Source: Fragilaria crotonensis
Taxonomy: Eukaryota > Bacillariophyta > Fragilariophyceae > Fragilariales > Fragilariaceae
Assembly: GCA_022925895.1 (NCBI GenBank)
Contig: JAKSYS010000026.1
Location: forward strand, 141,687 to 205,686
Direction: 5' to 3'
Length of the DNA: 64,000 nt
Shown: positions 12,640-21,662 of the stretch, one piece after another
Layout of the letters: the number at the start of each line of letters is the position of its first letter
How positions within the stretch are numbered: position 1 is the first letter of the stretch
The notes under the pieces: model-generated
Databases searched by the model: none
What the model saw: only the letters and a program-made list of their open reading frames with translations
What the model was told of the DNA's origin: nothing
Program-made: the position numbers and the translations under genes

Positions 12640-14403
12640 AGTCGCAATGGAATATTGGCCTCGAGACGGCCAAGCGAACCCTTCAGGTAACTACCCAGCG
12701 CGGGGTAAGAACGGCGGTTCACCCGTTGCATCGAAGATATCGTGTTGATCACTTACACCTGAACCGGCGACGCCTAAACGGGGACTGGTTCACTGATACC
12801 TTATTCTCGAAGGTCATATCAATCCAGGGTAACACGTGCGCGCAAGTATTCACTAACGGATCGTTCACCACGGTCCATCCTCTCGATTCGAAATCGAAAG
12901 TCGCTCGGGCGTTGACCGAATTTGCCGACGATGTTGGCATTCCCGACTCTTATTGTCTGATGGAGCTCCTGAAATTGTTGGTCCTAAGACTGACTTTATG
13001 AAGGAGGTAAATCGTTTGAAGATCAGGTTAAAGCGATCTGAGGTTGGACGATCGAATCAGAATTACGCGGCCGAGAGAGAAATCGGCGAGCTCAAGAAGC
13101 GATGGAGGAATCGCATGCTCAAGCGGAAAGTCCCACCTCGTCTGTGGGATTATGGTCTGGTCTATGAGACTAACATTCTAAACAGAATTCCTCGTGGCCA
13201 ACAACTGCGCACCGGGATTGAGATTGTCACCGGTGAGACACCAGACATATCCGAGTGGATCGACTTTGAGTTTTACGATCGCGTATGGTACTATGACCAG
13301 AAGAAAATCGAAATCGACGGCAGCGGGCGACGTCTCGCGCGATGGCTTGGTGTTGCCCACCGGGTCGGGAGCGATCTATGCTATTGGCTACTACTTGAAT
13401 CCGGCAATGTAATTGCCCGAACTACGGTACAACATGTCGTACGTGACGACTACCTGAACAATGACGTCAAAACCGAAATCGAGAGTTTCGACCGCGCAGT
13501 TGACGAGCGTCTGTCAGATCAGAACTTTATGGTTAATGCAGCTGACGGATTTTATATCCAAGACGAGTTTGATGAGGTGCCGAGTGGCACCGTACGCACC
13601 GATGAAGATTATGGTGATATGGATACCCCTGACACGTTGGATGCCGACGACATCAACGACGACGTAATTGACAAGTATTTGAATGCAGAACTAATATTCG
13701 ATGTCGGTACCGGCAGCGAACGCAAAGGCCGTGTGGTCAAACGTGCAAAGGGTACCTCTGGCGAACCGATTGGTCGTGCACATTCCAACCCCCTGTTCGA
13801 TACCCGAGAATACGTTGTGGAGTTCACCGATGGATCCACTGAGAACTACTTCGCAAATGTGATTGCAGAGTGCATGTATGCACAGGTTGACTCTGAAGGA
13901 AATCAGTATCAATTATTGAGCGAGATCACTGACCACAGGTCTGACAACTCGGCGATTCAAATCGCAGATGGTTTCACCACAAGTCGTAATGGGAATCGTA
14001 TCCCGAAACCGACAACCCGAGGCTGGTCCCTTTTGGTCTCGTGGAAGGACGGGTCTTCGGACTGGCTACCATTGAAGGATTTAAAAGACGCCTATCCTGT
14101 TCAAGTTGCAGAACATGCAGTGGCAAACAAAATTGCCAATGAGCCAGCGTTTAACTGGTGGGTACATACGGTTCTGCGGAAGCGAAATCGCATTGTTGCG
14201 AAGGTCAAACGCTATTGGCGTACGACCCACAAATTCGGCATACGTGTGCCAAAGACAGTCGAAGAAGCCCTGACGATTGACGAAGAGACTGGAACCGACT
14301 TCTGGCGCAAGGCACTAGGAAAGGAGATGACAAAGGTGAAAGTCGCGTGGAAAAGCGCTGACGGATATCACCCGCGCAAGCACGAAGCGGAAAGGAGCCA
14401 TCG
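12640..14403 (+). pseudogene. copia integrase and linker
   Basis: Inserts the element cDNA. HPLHRRYRVDHLHLNRRRLN leads into the catalytic core (TDTLFSKVISIQGNTCAQVF, then EFADDVGIPD, then AAEREIGELKKRWRNRMLKR), giving the D, D and E positions. The frame changes once near 12960. The long frame 12953-14407 then covers the C-terminal integrase part (PDISEWIDFEFYDRVWYYD) and an acidic linker. A chromodomain-like or linker segment (WSLLVSWKDGSSDWLPLKDL) precedes the reverse transcriptase. Confidence 0.8.
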
Positions 14404-15323
14404 ATGATTGGTTTTCAAGAAATTCGATGTCATGTGATATTCGACGTCAAAATGGATTTCACCCGAAAGGCAAGATTTGTTGCCGGAGGGCACACGACCG
14501 ACACGCCAGGATCAATAACTTACTCGAGCGTGGTATCGCGCGACAGTGTACGCCTGGCGTTTCTGATTGCTGGTCTGAACGACCTCGACGTGCTGGCGGG
14601 GGATGTAACTAATGCATACTTAAACGCATCGTGCCGTGAGAAGATTTGGTTTGAAGGCGGCATTGAAACTGGCGAAGACCGCGGTAAAGTCTTGATTGTA
14701 ACGCGTGCCCTATATGGACTCAAATCATCAGGCGCTGCCTGGCGTGCGGACTTGGCGGCAACGCTGTGTCATATGAACTTTACATCAACACAGGCAGATC
14801 CAGATGTATGGATTCGAGTGCCGGAACGCACTATGATATGGTGCTGGTATACGTTGATGACATCCTGATATTCGCGAAGGAACCAAAACAAACTATGGAC
14901 GAATTGGGCAAATTGTACGAGCTCAAACCGGAAAGTGTCCATGAGCCCGATATATATCTTGGAGCCAATATGGAGAAGGTCCAATTGCCGAATGGTAAAG
15001 TGGAATGGGCCATGGGCAGTAAGACTTATGTCAAGAACGCCATCAAAGTTGTCGAAGCATTAATTGCAGAAGACGATCCGGAAGCGAAGTTGAAGTCAAC
15101 GGCGAGGAATCCATTCCCCAGCGGCTATAAACCCGAGCTGGATGTAACTCCTGAACTTAGTGACGAAATGGGGTCGCGTTTCCTTCAATTAATTGGAATA
15201 CTGCGATGGGCAATTGAACTCGACGCCTCGACATATTTGTCGAAGTATCGCAATTGTCCCAACATCAGGCACTGCCACGGCGCGGTCACCTTGAGGCATT
15301 ATACCACATCTTCGCATACTTGA
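14404..15323 (+). pseudogene. copia reverse transcriptase
   Basis: Copia palm motifs are clear. VTNAYLNASCREKIWFEGG carries the first Asp, VTRALYGLKSSGAAW is motif 4, and the catalytic box is VLVYVDDILIFA (about 14840-14875), in a frame one indel away from the first part. A further shift near 15240-15300 separates it from RNase H. Confidence 0.85.
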
Positions 15324-15448
15324 AGAAGCATGAGAATGGAGCTCGAATTGTTTTCGATCCGAAAACCCTGATATCGATGAACGTGTGTTCAACTCTGATG
15401 CCGATTGGCGAGATTTTTACGGGACGTATGTGAGGAACTACCCCGAAC

Positions 15449-15937
15449 ATGCCAGAACCAAAAGGTAAATGTGTGAATATATCATGTTTTGTTGATGCGA
15501 ATCACGCAGGAAATGTTATTACTCGAAGATCGCATACTGGGATTATCATTTACGTTCAGAATGCGCCGATCATTTGGTTTTCGAAACGGCAAAATACCGT
15601 TGAATCCTCCAGTTTTGGGAGTGAATTTGTCGCGCTTCGAGCTGCGAAGGACATGCTTGTCGCGTTGCGATATAAGCTCCGAATGTTTGGCGTGCCAATT
15701 GATGGTCCGGCCAATATATTCTGCGACAATAACGGTGTCGTGAAAAACACAACTATTCCCGAATCAATGCTTGCAAAGAAGCACAATGCAATCAATTATC
15801 ATGCAGTACGCGAGGCTGTTGCCGCGAAGATCATACGTGTGGGAAAAGAGGACGGCATGACTAACTTGGCCGACCTATTTACGAAGGTACTCACTGCAGA
15901 CCGTCGTCGAGCACTATGTCGCCACATTATGTATTAA
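15449..15937 (+). pseudogene. copia RNase H
   Basis: Copia-type RNase H. FVDANHAGNVITRRSHTGII carries the first Asp, SSSFGSEFVALRAAKDM the Glu, IFCDNNGVVKNTTIPES the second Asp, and the end is TNLADLFTKVLT as in most copia elements. This piece is uninterrupted to its stop. It is the last domain of the polyprotein and lies just before the candidate LTR. Confidence 0.85.
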
Positions 15938-16260: not shown

Positions 16261-17071
16261 TACACATTTGAACGAAGACATGCGCATCATGCATGGAGTC
16301 CGCTGTCCAATGTCCACTGGTCGTACAGCGTCAAATACTTTTAGGGTTTACTACTAGATTGTAGGGAACATTTTATCCAGTGCAGCCTACCTGTACCGTT
16401 GTACTCCGAGTACATCGCATAGTGTTCCAGTATCTGATACAGCGTACCCTCGTATCATCATTATGAATAGAATGTGCCACTTCCGTTATAGGAGGCTCAT
16501 TGACCCGGAGATCTGTTTTCAATACGTATGGGAATGCAAGTCAATCAACTGCGACAACACGATCGTGGTGTGACGGTCAAGTGGTGGGTTGGGATGCATC
16601 GATCGCGGTCTGGGACGTGGCTTTTTCCTGGCGTCATCGAATGATGATGCATCTGTACCCATGATCTTCTGCTAGAGTTGAAGAGTACAGCAATGCACCA
16701 TTGTGCCAGTCGTCGGGCGATACGGGCTGTACATGGTAGGAGGCGGACGTTGTAGAATGCATACGAAATGGTCACAGACAAATGTGTTGATGGTATGCCC
16801 TTTCACAATCCCCTTGAGTCCGTATAGTATGCAATACTATCTCTTTGAATAAAAGTCTTTCGATCCGCAGACCGAGACGACAGCTCATGATTCATGACCC
16901 ACGACGATGCGCACAAGGCAAGAAGGAATCAAACTATTGTGAGTATCATAGATATTGTTAAGCATTCCCTTTTGTTAACGTATGGCATCTGACCCAAAGG
17001 AAGCTTCGCATTTTTTCATCGTGAAGATGCAAGAAACGTAAAGACACTGTTGAACGGGATCGAGGTGGGAA
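16261..17071. other. Spacer with no gene
   Basis: No coding region or RNA gene recognised. It includes the downstream flank of the subtilisin-like gene on the minus strand. Confidence 0.5.
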
Positions 17072-18766
17072 CTACTTGCAAGTCTTCTTCTTTTTTCCTT
17101 GGCAGGTACCACTGCAGCAGTTTAAGGTAACCGCACATGCTCGACCTTTTGCAGTACAGCAGCCCTTTGACAAGTAGTCGGAGGCCGCCTTGGCTTGGAC
17201 GAGGCCGTAACCATAGGTGTCGTCCCTCCCTTCGGTACCCAGGTCCATCGCAGTGACGAAAAGGGCGTTAACGATGTTCTGCTTGGTGCAGGCAGGGTAG
17301 CGGCTCCAGACTAGAGCCGCCACACCCGACACGTGTGACGTCGCCATGCCAGTGCCATCATAATAATCATAATTGGTCGCGACAACAGAAAGAGTGGCTG
17401 ATGTGCCCGCCATATTGACCAGTGCTGCGCCATCGGTGCCGGATATGCCGACAGCAGGTATGACTCCTGTGGGGGAGGCACTAAGGGAGCCTAAAAATAG
17501 TCCAGGTTCCTTGTTGTAGATGATGACACCAAGCCCCCCCCAACTCTCGCATTCCTGGACTTTCTCAGGGAAGCCGATACTTCCACGCTTGATGACGCAA
17601 ACTTTGCCGGAAGCACCTTCACAGTCTCCTGGGCTGCCTAGTCCATCGATTTGACCGCATATGAATAGGGGACCGGTTGCGGTATTGGTCGCAGAGGCCT
17701 CCATTGCCCTGACTTCGTAGCTCATCCCGGCAACGACCAAAGATCCTGCCCTCCCCTTGCCCATATGCCAGGTCGACAGGACATCGACACCCGGAGCCGC
17801 CAAATCCACCTGATCGTTCTGCTGGGAGAAGGATGCGATGGTCTTGCTTGAGTCAATGGCGGCAACGGAAACGACTGAGCTGTACGAAGCGGGATACAAG
17901 TAGGAGGTGTCTCCGTCATCCCCGGCGGTAGCAATGGAGAGCACGCCCGCCTTGCTTGCACTATTGAAGGCTTTTAATTCAGTCTTGCTTGGATCGGCAC
18001 TCCAATAATGAATGTTAACGATTTTGGCACCAGCAGATCTGCAAGTGTTCAGAGCGGCAACGAGGGTGGACGAGTACGCCCACAAACCATCATCATCAAA
18101 CACCCGCACGATATGGAGCTTAACGCCAGGACTAACGCCGACGACGCCCATATCATTATTACCGATAGCAGCGATCGTCCCAGCGACATGCGTGCCAAGG
18201 CCAGTTCCATCTTGGGACCAGGGACCTGCTCCGACATCAGACGCGCCGTTGACACCACTTGAGGGAAGGTCTTCGTGGCCCAAGGTGTAGCCAGAGTCTA
18301 TCATGCAAACTTTGATAGGGGACGTGGTATTGAAGGATACCTTGTCAGCTTGGACCATCCCAATGCCGTATGGTTTGACCTCGGCGAGCCTCCTATGGTT
18401 TGGCGACGATGGGACAGAGTTAGTACCGCCACCGCGAAGGCCGATGAAATGGCGCTTGTAGTCTTGCTCTACATATGCGATGTTCGGGTCAAGTTTGAGC
18501 GCCTCGACTTTGCTCGGGTTCATGGTTGTTGCGACTGCCTTGTAGTTGGGGAAGTTGTGGCGGACGGCTTTGGCGTGGGACCTAGCCGTGTCAAGTCCCA
18601 TTTCGTTATGGTACCCTATGATGTACTTGTCCTGTTCAACTTCATCGGCAGCGTCAAATATGCCGACGCCGTCGTGGACGGGCTGCACCGGCTGACCATT
18701 GGCGGGTACGAGTGTCTTGAGCCCCAAGTGGGCGAACAGGAGCAACGATGCAAATGCTAGCTTCAT
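17072..18766 (-). CDS. Secreted subtilisin-fold protein (peptidase S8 relative) lacking catalytic residues
   Basis: 564 residues in one exon. The order is signal peptide (1-24, MKLAFASLLLFA start), I9-type propeptide (about 48-105), S8 fold (about 145-530) with an inserted PA domain (about 365-455), and a short Cys-rich tail (536-563; C-x6-C-x5-CC-x3-C-x7-C, knottin-like spacing). Asp157 of the catalytic triad is present (KVCMIDSGYTLGHEDLP). The catalytic His position is Leu190 (GTGLGTHVAGT), the oxyanion-hole Asn is Asp283 (ATAGDDGDTS), the nucleophile Ser is Gly473 (DGTGMATSHVSG), and the substrate strand normally reading S-L-G-G is N-I-H-Y-W-S. Peptidase activity is therefore unlikely. A binding, inhibitor or decoy role, or recent loss of function, are the options. 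The Met at 18766 is chosen because it opens a clean signal peptide. Confidence 0.9.
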   Translation of the reverse strand: MKLAFASLLLFAHLGLKTLVPANGQPVQPVHDGVGIFDAADEVEQDKYIIGYHNEMGLDTARSHAKAVRHNFPNYKAVATTMNPSKVEALKLDPNIAYVEQDYKRHFIGLRGGGTNSVPSSPNHRRLAEVKPYGIGMVQADKVSFNTTSPIKVCMIDSGYTLGHEDLPSSGVNGASDVGAGPWSQDGTGLGTHVAGTIAAIGNNDMGVVGVSPGVKLHIVRVFDDDGLWAYSSTLVAALNTCRSAGAKIVNIHYWSADPSKTELKAFNSASKAGVLSIATAGDDGDTSYLYPASYSSVVSVAAIDSSKTIASFSQQNDQVDLAAPGVDVLSTWHMGKGRAGSLVVAGMSYEVRAMEASATNTATGPLFICGQIDGLGSPGDCEGASGKVCVIKRGSIGFPEKVQECESWGGLGVIIYNKEPGLFLGSLSASPTGVIPAVGISGTDGAALVNMAGTSATLSVVATNYDYYDGTGMATSHVSGVAALVWSRYPACTKQNIVNALFVTAMDLGTEGRDDTYGYGLVQAKAASDYLSKGCCTAKGRACAVTLNCCSGTCQGKKKKTCK

Positions 18767-18865
18767 CTTGTCCTCACTTAACGCTCAGTAAAGCAAACAA
18801 CCCAAGCAACAACTACTTCAGATTATTGATGTCAGATTGTGACTTCTCGGTGTCAACATGTATCA
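18767..18865 (-). promoter_or_regulatory. Upstream region of the subtilisin-like gene, duplicated at 21.5 kb
   Basis: The roughly 95 bases before the start codon (5' UTR or proximal promoter) recur at 21495-21586 in opposite orientation with about 90% identity by eye, including the stretch gtagttgttgcttgggttgt. Conservation over both copies suggests they duplicated together with the leader exon. No TATA element is evident. Confidence 0.5.
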
Positions 18866-20785
18866 GAAAGGGATTACAAGTGGTACTGTATTTAAGATAT
18901 TATATTTACTGATACGTACGAAGCGAATTGACATAGGTGCGTTCCTACTATGGCTGGGTTCATATTTTAGGTACACTAGGTAGCTTAACGTAGGCCTAGT
19001 ATTATGATTTTTGGTGCTGACCGAGAAAAGTATACGAAGTCTACGGTACTTGTACAGCTGTGTACTGAACTGCTGATGCCCAGATGACCCACAAACCCAA
19101 AGGTAGCCATGGCGAATCAACGCACAAGAAAATGGAAATGGCGTTCGAGTGTTTCAGAACCTGCAATGCGAGCGCCAGCGTGACAAGATCTGCACCACAA
19201 AGCAGCCATGCTGGTAGATACAATGACAAGATTCGTGAGCAGCCAACAACAAAAATGAGCCCACGATCGAAATCCAAGAGTGTTCGTTATCTCCTTTAAT
19301 CAAAGCCCCTTCTCCTCCGCCATGCTCTTGATCCTCCTCCGGCTTGTTGGATAAAGAGAAGGCCATGGAAATTATATGCCCCAAGCGAAATCCAACCTTT
19401 TGAAAGAAAGCAGCGTCGTGATTATACTATGTGGCGGGCAATGGTGGGCATGTAGTACCGCTTGTGACTGACAACTGCGCTCGAATTGCATCCGAGGAGA
19501 CGTGTGGCAGTATCAAATTATTTCAAAGTTCGTAACAGGCGGGCAGAGGTAGGCGCTGGGATAGGAGGGCTTGCGCTTCGGATCAAGAACAATTGATTTG
19601 AAGTTGTTGACAAGAATCAGGTCCGTACTGCTGGGCAGCAGTGTTGAGAAGTTTGCTTGAATCTTATGATCTCGTCATCAACATATCCTGGTGGATCCTG
19701 ATAACATATCAATAACTGCTGCCCAAGTCCGGATATTTGAATTGCTCTTGGCGAACATCCGCCAATGCTGTCTCTTCCAATTCATGAGCGAACTTGATAA
19801 TCGGCAACTTCTGGATTCCAGGTTTCATGTTGATAAAACTCGCGAAACTCGCGGACCAGCCACCGCCAAGTTTGGGTGACTATGAAGGGATCCCAGTGTT
19901 TAGAGGCAGGTTCCCCCATGCGCGTCAAGAACTCGAGTCCTGCAAGATGTTGGGTACGTTGTAATTTGGCTGTGACAACAGGCTACCACAAGAGGCCGTG
20001 ACAAATTGATCCAGCAGCCAGGGACGGAACCGAGATCGCAAACCAGCGATGTCAACATGGTTGCCAGTTCTCAAATTGGCAATATTGCAACAGTCCTCTT
20101 CATCAGATAATGTTTCTGGAATCACCAGAGAAGTTGTAGTAGATGCTCAGCATAGACCGCCTATTTCTGGCACGTTATCAGTAGAAATGTGATTATTGGC
20201 CGTGAATCTTTCAAAACAGCGTTTTCTGTGGAGCTTCCACGTGATTTCACTCATGATGAGGAAGGAGATGATGTTTATGCAAGAAGCTCCACGGAATATC
20301 AAGGATTGGTTGAGATGTGCACCATCATGGTCCATGGACTCAGAAGCAAGTGATTCGGCGTGTTAATCTATTTTCAATTTTCGCCGTCTAAAAAAATAGT
20401 GGTACTAGTACGTAGAGCTCTACCTCGAGAATCTTCCTGGTGCATCCAGCCATAAGTTGAAATCAAGCTCAATTTTTTGAATTTTTTGAAAATCGTATCA
20501 TGCGATAATCTTAGCTAAAATACATGTGTGTCGCCATTCTTACCAAAATTTTTGATTTTATCGGTATCATATGGTTTCACAAGATACCGTACCTTCGCCG
20601 TTGAGCCTTTTGGATCCGTTACATGGCAGGTATGGGCAATATCAAAGGTTATTGCAATTTCATCTGCGCGACTCCCTCCAACAACTTCCAGGATCAAAAA
20701 TTCAAGATCCGCAAAGATTCTGTCACAAACCCGGAAATGATACCAAAATTCCCAAAAATCTCTTGGTAAGAACGCCCATTACGGA
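18866..20785. other. Long non-coding stretch with one ORF remnant
   Basis: No complete gene is visible. From 20186 to 20353 (plus) an open stretch of 55 codons starting NVIIGRESFKTAFSVELPRD and ending in a stop reads like the C-terminal exon of an unknown protein, without recognisable domain or start. The rest shows no coding signal or RNA gene. Confidence 0.35.
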
Positions 20786-20787
20786 AC

Positions 20788-21336
20788 AAGTTGAAAAATA
20801 TTTATGATACGCATGACGCGAATTGGCTCAACCTGGACCAATTGATACCTATATGGCGACAACGGAAACGACTGAGCTGTGCGAAGCGGGAAACCAGTAG
20901 GAGGTGTCTCCACCATTCCCGGCGGCAGCAATGGAGAGCACGCCTGCCTTGCTTGCAGTATTGAACGCATTTAATTCAGTCTTGCTTGGATCAGGACATC
21001 CCAAACTCATGCTGACGATTTTGGCACCAGCAGCTCTGCAAGTGTTCAGAGCGGCAACGAGGGTGGACGAGTACGCCCACAAGCCATCCCCAAACACCCG
21101 CACGATGTGGAGCTTAACGCCAGGACTAAGAAATTAGGTTTATGCCACCCTTGGGATACACCCGTCGGCAAGGCAAAGTGAGGCACATGTAAAGGCATTC
21201 TCAAGAAACGGGACATGCGTTTCACGACATTCCTTGTATCGCTTTTGGAATTTGGATGGCTTTAAATGTAGGCATCAATTGGTCCAGGTAGAGCACATTC
21301 GCGTCATGCGTAACATAAATATTTTTCAACCTGTAT
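20788..21336. mobile_element. Inverted-repeat unit enclosing a subtilisin gene fragment
   Basis: About 65 bp at 20788-20853 (containing gttgaaaaatatttatgata, then cgcatgacgcgaat, then cctggaccaattgat) reappears as its reverse complement at 21271-21336 with roughly 85-90% identity by eye. The enclosed 420 bp is mostly a piece of a subtilisin gene (20854-21127). The arrangement looks like a foldback element or non-autonomous transposon that captured a host gene piece. No target-site duplication or transposase was identified. Confidence 0.6.
20849..21127 (-). pseudogene. Subtilisin (S8) gene fragment
   Basis: An internal piece of about 84 codons, near identical to residues 216-304 of the intact paralogue at 17-18.8 kb (FGDGLWAYSSTLVAALNTCR, then KIVSMSLGCPDPSKTELNAF, then LSIAAAGNGGDTSYWFPAS). 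Unlike that gene it keeps the normal substrate strand (S-M-S-L-G) and the oxyanion-hole Asn (AAAGNGG). It therefore derives from a less altered relative. It has no start, signal peptide, His box or Ser box, and it is bounded by inverted repeats. Confidence 0.85.
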
Positions 21337-21478
21337 CGGTAAGTCAATTCGCTTCCTGCGTATCAGTATACATTTTTCAACTTGTGTGCATGTAAGTTTC
21401 AGAATTTGGATCATCAGGTGGTGCGGTTGATCAAATTTGCTTCATGCATATCAGTATATATCTTTTCTATGCAGTAAT
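21299..21478. repeat. Three diverged copies of a ~38-bp motif
   Basis: Related segments begin at 21299 (ttcgcgtcatgcgtaacata), 21349 (ttcgcttcctgcgtatcagt) and 21438 (ttgcttcatgcatatcagta), each followed by an A/T-rich tail ending near tttttcaacttgtg or a variant. The first copy is part of the right inverted repeat, so the repeat arm seems to have been amplified. Confidence 0.55.
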
Positions 21479-21489
21479 CCCTTTCTCCT

Positions 21490-21662
21490 AAATGTTGACA
21501 CCAAGAAATCACAATCTGACAGCAATAATCTGAAGTAGTTGTTGCTTGGGTTGTTTGCTTTACAAAGTGTTTATTGAGGACAAGATGAAGCTAGCATTTG
21601 CATCGTTGCTCCTGTTCGCCCTCTTGGGGCTCAAGACACTCGTACCCGCCAATGGTCAGCCG
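21490..21662 (+). pseudogene. Displaced 5' end (promoter plus signal peptide) of a subtilisin paralogue
   Basis: The promoter-like stretch and first 26 codons of the intact gene recur here on the opposite strand. The start is at 21584, the product begins MKLAFASLLLFALLGLKTLV and is identical except His13 to Leu. After PANGQP the match stops, and the frame continues into unrelated sequence for about 60 codons (to 21842). It could still direct secretion of a short peptide if transcribed, but no evidence supports that. Confidence 0.8.

Follow-up and report, generated by a model that had tools for sequence, protein, structure and literature searches.

An intact subtilase-family gene of a diatom with a replaced catalytic cleft: a candidate secreted pseudopeptidase

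Inactive members of peptidase family S8 are already known as a kind. According to PMC5753285, MEROPS regards an S8 homologue as having a replaced active site if any such residue is replaced in the family member. The S8 pseudoprotease CspC of Clostridioides difficile, which acts in bile-acid germinant signalling, carries Gly in place of the Ser and Thr in place of the His with the Asp kept; its prodomain stays uncleaved, it cannot autoprocess, and it is a working signalling protein (PMC6636752). The propeptides of subtilases can act as folding chaperones and as inhibitors of the mature enzyme (PMC10580911), and in plants an inactive subtilase precursor fails to shed its prodomain and does not reach the cell exterior (PMC11203471). 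In the part of the open-access literature that was covered, outside of which most subscription papers lie, no S8 pseudopeptidase from a diatom was found.

The locus that we compare with these systems lies in a 64-kb window (the whole stretch of DNA analysed, C197:141687-205686) of an assembly of 62.1 Mb in 881 contigs. The assembly encodes light-harvesting proteins, and its Rubisco large subunit scores 1048-1067 bits against five solved Rubiscos (7yk5, 5n9z, 5mz2, 5oya and 6ftl), which are diatom enzymes, with 926 bits for the following one. Gene A of the locus has a paralogue B on contig C218 and a paralogue O on contig C139. A preliminary description of the window had proposed an intact frame that keeps the PA domain and the subtilisin fold, and both parts of this proposal hold. 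Translation of the open frame and alignment to B and O reveal neither a stop nor a frameshift in the 564 codons. The Pfam profile Peptidase_S8 matches with 117.7 bits (cut-off 21.8), which places the protein in family S8 by sequence, and the Pfam profile PA matches with 45.4 bits (cut-off 23.9) at residues 380-449. The best solved relative, 1v6c, aligns to residues 128-537 and has its PA insert at the matching place. We take this structure to be that of Apa1 from Pseudoalteromonas. As the 1v6c chain begins at A128-E-V-K-P-Y-G of gene A, the end of the propeptide is expected at residue 127. In the core of the signal peptide codon 13 encodes His in A and Leu13 is found in the paralogues; the best 11-residue hydropathy is 2.02 in A versus 2.55 and 2.75 in the sisters. 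The paralogue alignment further exhibits a 21-nt in-frame deletion after codon 27 that is specific to A. A predicted structure of A, calculated from a four-row alignment of A and three related loci, was set aside with a mean pLDDT of 33.8. The features of the locus are collected in Table 1.

Table 1. Features of gene A and its surroundings; positions are those of the window unless a contig is given.
Feature	Position	Strand	Description or basis
A-B duplicated unit	16279-18867 and C218:683446-686067		alignment
3' non-coding flank common to A and B	16279..17071	-	783/792 aligned bases identical (98.9%)
Gene A	17072..18766	-	564 codons, single exon; subtilase of family S8 that contains a PA insert and has a degenerate active site
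C-terminal tail, codons 533-564	17075..17170	-	C-x6-C-x5-CC-x3-C-x7-C
S8 domain, last part, codons 463-532	17171..17380	-	Pfam and PDB alignment
Ser477 for invariant Pro of GTSMATPH	17336..17338	-	codon comparison, S8 alignment
Gly473 (GGC) for nucleophile Ser (TCC in B and O; two changes)	17348..17350	-	paralogue alignment
PA insert and linkers, codons 336-462	17381..17761	-	Pfam PA 380-449
S8 domain, first part, codons 128-335	17762..18385	-	contains Asp157, Leu190, 251-257 and Asp283; Pfam, PDB and paralogue alignments
Asp283 (GAT) for oxyanion Asn (AAT)	17918..17920	-	codon comparison, S8 alignment
Thr280 for invariant Ala, oxyanion loop	17927..17929	-	codon comparison, S8 alignment
Codons 251-257, N-I-H-Y-W-S-A for S-M-S-L-G-G-P (B)	17996..18016	-	paralogue alignment
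Leu190 (CTT) for catalytic His (CAT in B and O)	18197..18199	-	paralogue alignment
Asp157, sole catalytic residue retained	18296..18298	-	PDB, paralogue and S8 alignments
Linker and propeptide, codons 25-127	18386..18694	-	start of 1v6c alignment
Signal peptide, codons 1-24	18695..18766	-	boundary by eye; paralogue alignment; hydropathy
Conserved 5' region	18767..18877	-	common to B (to 18867) and O (to 18877)
Paralogue fragment, codons 211-306	20853..21129	-	93% identical to B, 89% to A

The set of an active S8 peptidase (Asp, His, Ser and oxyanion Asn) is reduced in A to the Asp, and with H190L, S473G and N283D the gene falls under the MEROPS definition of a replaced active site. Alignment to 1v6c, to subtilisins and to both paralogues confirms the replacements by Leu190, Gly473, Asp283 and N-I-H-Y-W-S, together with the retained Asp157, that the preliminary description had listed. 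The losses are real and more extensive than first stated, with two more invariant cleft residues being replaced, A280T and P477S. Single-base changes had been suggested for both His to Leu and Ser to Gly; this is correct for the former (CAT to CTT), and the latter needs two (TCC, found in both paralogues, to GGC). For the replaced strand at codons 251-257 no donor was found, as its 26-base pattern has no second match in the assembly within 3 mismatches. The N-I-H-Y-W-S-A stretch may have originated from two compensating 1-nt indels: aligned in this way by eye, it has fewer mismatches to B and a smaller drop relative to the paralogue fragment.

To judge these positions against the family we used nine outside S8 proteins, namely seven plasmid-record proteins and the genes on C177 and C412 of the same genome. 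The seven were hand-picked for coverage and relatedness from 17 plasmid records with a match, and the other ten were left out. From 366 sites at which at least seven of the nine outside proteins are aligned, 50 positions are invariant, and A departs at nine of them compared to one in B and two in O. One departure, D465N, is common to the three genes. The remaining eight are specific to A (190, 253, 254, 255, 280, 283, 473 and 477), with O departing too at position 254, where it has Ile. The cleft was defined as the 44 codons at a distance of at most four from Asp157, His190, Asn283 or Ser473, plus codons 250-257. All eight A-specific departures fall among the 22 invariant positions near the catalytic residues or the substrate strand (hypergeometric P = 6e-4), and if adjacent changes are merged to six events the concentration in the cleft gives P = 5e-3; both values are optimistic because the hits were already known when the cleft set was chosen.

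The paralogues are the reference for the direction of change. B (569 aa, 86% identical to A) and O (564 aa, 70% identical) are both intact with the full architecture and canonical residues. A profile search of the assembly with PF00082 yielded at least 15 matches at no fewer than nine places, which are A, B, O, C177, C412, C55, C715, C250 and the fragment in the window. Inspection by eye covered C250, which has the catalytic set as do C177 and C412, and likewise C55 and C715; among the eight non-fragment places A alone has lost catalytic residues. Within the family one S8 gene occurs in three near-identical copies (C412:17000-26999, C55:16000-25999 and C715:6500-16499; 98.0-99.6% over 4.7-6.3 kb), and the frame of the C715 copy is split into three pieces. 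The fragment at 20853-21129, previously described as having the normal Asn and S-L-G, does carry S-L-G and A-A-G-N when read by eye. As the full-length paralogues B and O are canonical, the losses of A are derived, and the fragment adds to this polarity, so that the derived state already assumed in the preliminary description now has two full-length paralogues and one fragment behind it.

At 20786-21334 the sister-gene fragment is flanked by 69-nt inverted arms (90% complementary), as if it had been captured by a fold-back element, and an inverted copy of the 5' region and the first ~26 codons adjoins it at 21434-21662. A multi-copy repeat element at 18948-20457 lies upstream of A and ends 182 bp from its start; it is 99% identical to a copy on C563 and 95% identical to copies on C390 and C576, with many partial matches at ~80%. 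At 12953-15937 consecutive open frames have the look of a broken retroelement, with an RVT_2 match in 14404-14868 (52.8 bits, cut-off 31.6) and no Pfam match in the other three frames tested. From RVT_2 this element is presumably of the Copia type. We considered B as an allele of A and rejected this, since 30 kb of C218 compared with the whole window share little beyond the 2.6-kb unit, that is two pieces of local debris and three other short matches. Scans with the alignment of the three sisters (two propeptide patterns) returned just four weak relatives from a collection of genome contigs and no match from a viral contig collection. A phage collection gave 17 matches, and none of the 10 of 17 listed covers 80% of the query.

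The divergence between A and B is unevenly distributed over the duplicated unit. The coding parts are 91.9% identical (1552/1689), corresponding to a divergence of 8.1% versus 1.1% in the 3' flank, which shows no difference over the 217 nt that follow the stop codon. Among fourfold sites 23 of 267 differ (8.6%), and in the flank 9 of 792 positions do (Fisher 2e-8); the synonymous divergence according to the codon model is ~0.12. The flank was located at A and B only; a further site on C218 matches a 74-base piece of it at 84%. The contrast between flank and coding part points to recombination or to accelerated change in the coding part. With the flank so similar and the coding part so divergent, the two loci probably exchanged their 3' part later than the coding parts diverged, or the coding part took up foreign tracts. 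The two indels between the coding parts are both triplets (21 and 6 nt), and the 3' non-coding flank has five non-triplet gaps.

Substitution rates were examined with three-sequence codon models, which give an omega of 0.64 for A, 0.70 for B and 0.97 for the O branch. The data do not reject an omega of 1 on A (2dlnL 2.25), nor equality of A and B (0.04). The dN/dS comparison put forward earlier as a check for neutral decay therefore comes out below 1 on A and is not separated from 1, and the whole-gene value is undecisive since it is high in active-looking genes too. Counting codons by parsimony, with 22 ambiguous ones set aside, we find 32 nonsynonymous and 19 synonymous changes in A, of which 13 and 3 lie in the cleft. 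That 13 of the 32 nonsynonymous changes are in the 44 cleft codons indicates that changes were not spread regardless of site. Outside the cleft the ratio of nonsynonymous to synonymous changes is 19:16 in A versus 28:13 in B. With site classes, half of the codons have an omega close to 0, and for a further quarter it is close to 3.8. Making the A branch neutral throughout lowers the fit by 3.0 log units (5.5 if gap-adjacent codons are masked), and doing so for the B branch costs 4.3 log units (2.4 masked); as these costs are similar, the constraint on A appears to be about that of its canonical sister. If the conserved-site class is freed on A its omega is 0.06 (0.12 gap-masked), and a merely relaxed conserved class on A gains just 0.1 log units over M2a. 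Freeing all classes on A gains 7.5 log units with three parameters, leaving 2% of the codons at an omega of ~28 and 68% at 0.21.

In the branch-site test 2dlnL is 4.33 for A (1.3% of codons at an omega of ~42) and 0.66 for B as control; the posterior is 0.64-0.76 at codons 253, 269, 333, 334 and 473. The signal is borderline, being sensitive to multi-nucleotide changes and resting on codons with two changed bases. M2a is preferred over M1a with 2dlnL of 37 for A, B and O together, 40 for B and O alone and 15 for A and B alone, and the gain vanishes if the analysis is restricted to the 472 of 553 codons that remain without the 81 multi-hit ones, which differ at two or more bases. We do not accept positive selection as proven, given that the M2a gain depends on multi-hit codons. 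Substitutions are clustered in A and in B, and the M2a signal could stem from mutations of several nucleotides at once or from gene conversion.

The preliminary description had left the choice between a pseudopeptidase and a very young pseudogene, and both readings are live. We favour A as a recently derived, retained secreted pseudopeptidase and regard this as somewhat probable, in view of the in-frame derived loss, its confinement to the cleft and the triplet-only indels, set against an omega that is not significantly below 1. The young pseudogene, in which A was active until recently, selection was then lost and the frame is open for lack of time, is the less probable reading but has to be taken seriously. 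It agrees with the whole-gene omega and with the number of stops, since on a neutral A branch a mean of 2.0 would arise and none with a probability of 0.125; the absence of stops alone is thus weak evidence for retention. The weakened core of the signal peptide, the repeat element close upstream and the nearby debris of another copy, a sign that copies decay at this locus, point the same way. The absence of frameshifts is more telling and speaks against decay. At the five gaps per nine substitutions of the flank, a ratio drawn from a small and recombined stretch, ~40 indels would be expected on a neutral A branch, and the probability of no frameshift is 0.002-0.008 at 0.1 indels per substitution and 0.05-0.09 at 0.05. 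The poorer fit of the neutral A branch argues in the same direction. Neutrality would further lead to a mean of 4.5 hits at invariant sites compared to the eight observed (P>=8 = 0.067). A-specific changes are nevertheless absent from all 28 invariant sites that lie outside the cleft set, and nonsynonymous changes outside invariant sites number 34.7 compared to 46.5 expected (P = 0.008). One must keep in mind that A may have lived most of its branch as an active enzyme, which calls for caution with all of these tests, and that the small likelihood gap to neutrality, the His in the signal peptide, the repeat upstream and the plant precedent on export count against retention.

Two further explanations carry far less weight. 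A cryptically active enzyme, whose altered cleft would hydrolyse or transfer by another chemistry, might be seen in a cleft that is rebuilt and not scattered, with a block swap at codons 251-257 and two bases changed at codon 473, and in the codons picked out by the branch-site test. We consider it very improbable, as the cleft has lost both proton shuttle and nucleophile, carries Asp at the position of the oxyanion Asn and holds a bulky H-Y-W in its substrate strand, and no candidate nucleophile is evident. An error of sequence or assembly is, if anything, more improbable still. A base-call error is unlikely because six separate events would be needed, and these stand amid synonymous changes and the 21-nt deletion. 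The replaced strand matches once in the assembly, and a stretch of the window ~27 kb away has a single assembly match, with no second haplotype contig there.

The tail of A contains six Cys residues (537, 544, 550, 551, 555 and 563), all of which are kept in O. B has Trp at the fifth (Cys555), leaving an odd number of Cys at C218:685137-685253. The spacing of these residues in the tail of A, a putative knot, agrees with that of the inhibitor cystine knot (knottin). The preliminary description had suggested that a binding or inhibitory function might use this tail. In this spacing A resembles knottin peptides, and it differs from them in profile matches: the tail hits no Pfam family at E<=1, and a genome search with it returns the three sisters alone at E<=1. 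O has a sub-threshold match to the Pfam profile Conotoxin (23.2 bits, cut-off 25.1), and that of the B tail is at chance level (10.3 bits, cut-off 24.3). The outgroup sister O combines a live cleft with the complete six-Cys tail. One could imagine a reciprocal division of labour after the duplication, with B keeping a live cleft and losing a knot Cys and A keeping the six-Cys tail with a dead cleft. A would then be a binding or decoy partner whose cleft was rebuilt under positive selection, and which would steer or shield B in an extracellular arms race. This idea follows from the six Cys in A and O and the Trp in B, has one codon of B as its basis, and seems improbable to us.

For A as a retained pseudopeptidase we propose the following course. 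The gene would have been born by duplication in a small, fast-evolving diatom family of S8-PA proteases, and its cutting site would have been lost through at least six separate cleft events, with constraint kept on the propeptide, the S8 and PA framework and the Cys-rich tail. As the catalytic His and Ser are gone, A should not process its own propeptide. The protein might stay a one-chain propeptide-S8-PA body, or it might be cut by a sister protease. Its action could consist in binding: the protein might serve as a decoy that captures ligands, inhibitors or substrates of the active sisters, or else as a propeptide-bearing modulator of these sisters. We infer secretion, expression and a binding role for A. 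The retention of inactive precursors in plants argues against export, unless a sister cuts the propeptide. We favour a protein that binds with its propeptide either still in place or cleaved in trans, because A should not autoprocess and CspC works with its prodomain uncleaved.

If A is retained, it would represent a pseudopeptidase at an early stage, with its two active sisters available for comparison, so that the order in which catalysis was lost and a non-enzymatic function gained could be studied directly. The rapid change at the cleft and the PA insert hints at extracellular conflict in diatoms.

Among known systems the loss in A is the same as in CspC, with which it has the subtilase fold and a prodomain in common. 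CspC is a spore protein with a jelly-roll insert (PMC6636752), whereas A has a PA insert and, unlike CspC, loses the oxyanion Asn and the substrate strand too. With the CspC model NF040808 A scores 23.8 bits (cut-off 675), which does not make it a member, and the active-looking B scores 26.2. In its layout A is like the alkaline serine protease 1v6c and S8 proteins of Vibrio and Pseudoalteromonas, where a PA domain interrupts the S8 domain ahead of the nucleophile part. Identity to B is 32-52% among the 17 plasmid matches, which cover 39-86% of B. Unlike A, the seven inspected relatives have the full catalytic set; none of the seven has the six-Cys tail pattern, and two of them, both from Pseudoalteromonas, are without the PA insert. 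In its proposed role A would be comparable to PCSK9, a secreted S8 protein whose effect on its receptor does not need catalysis (PMC13276728).
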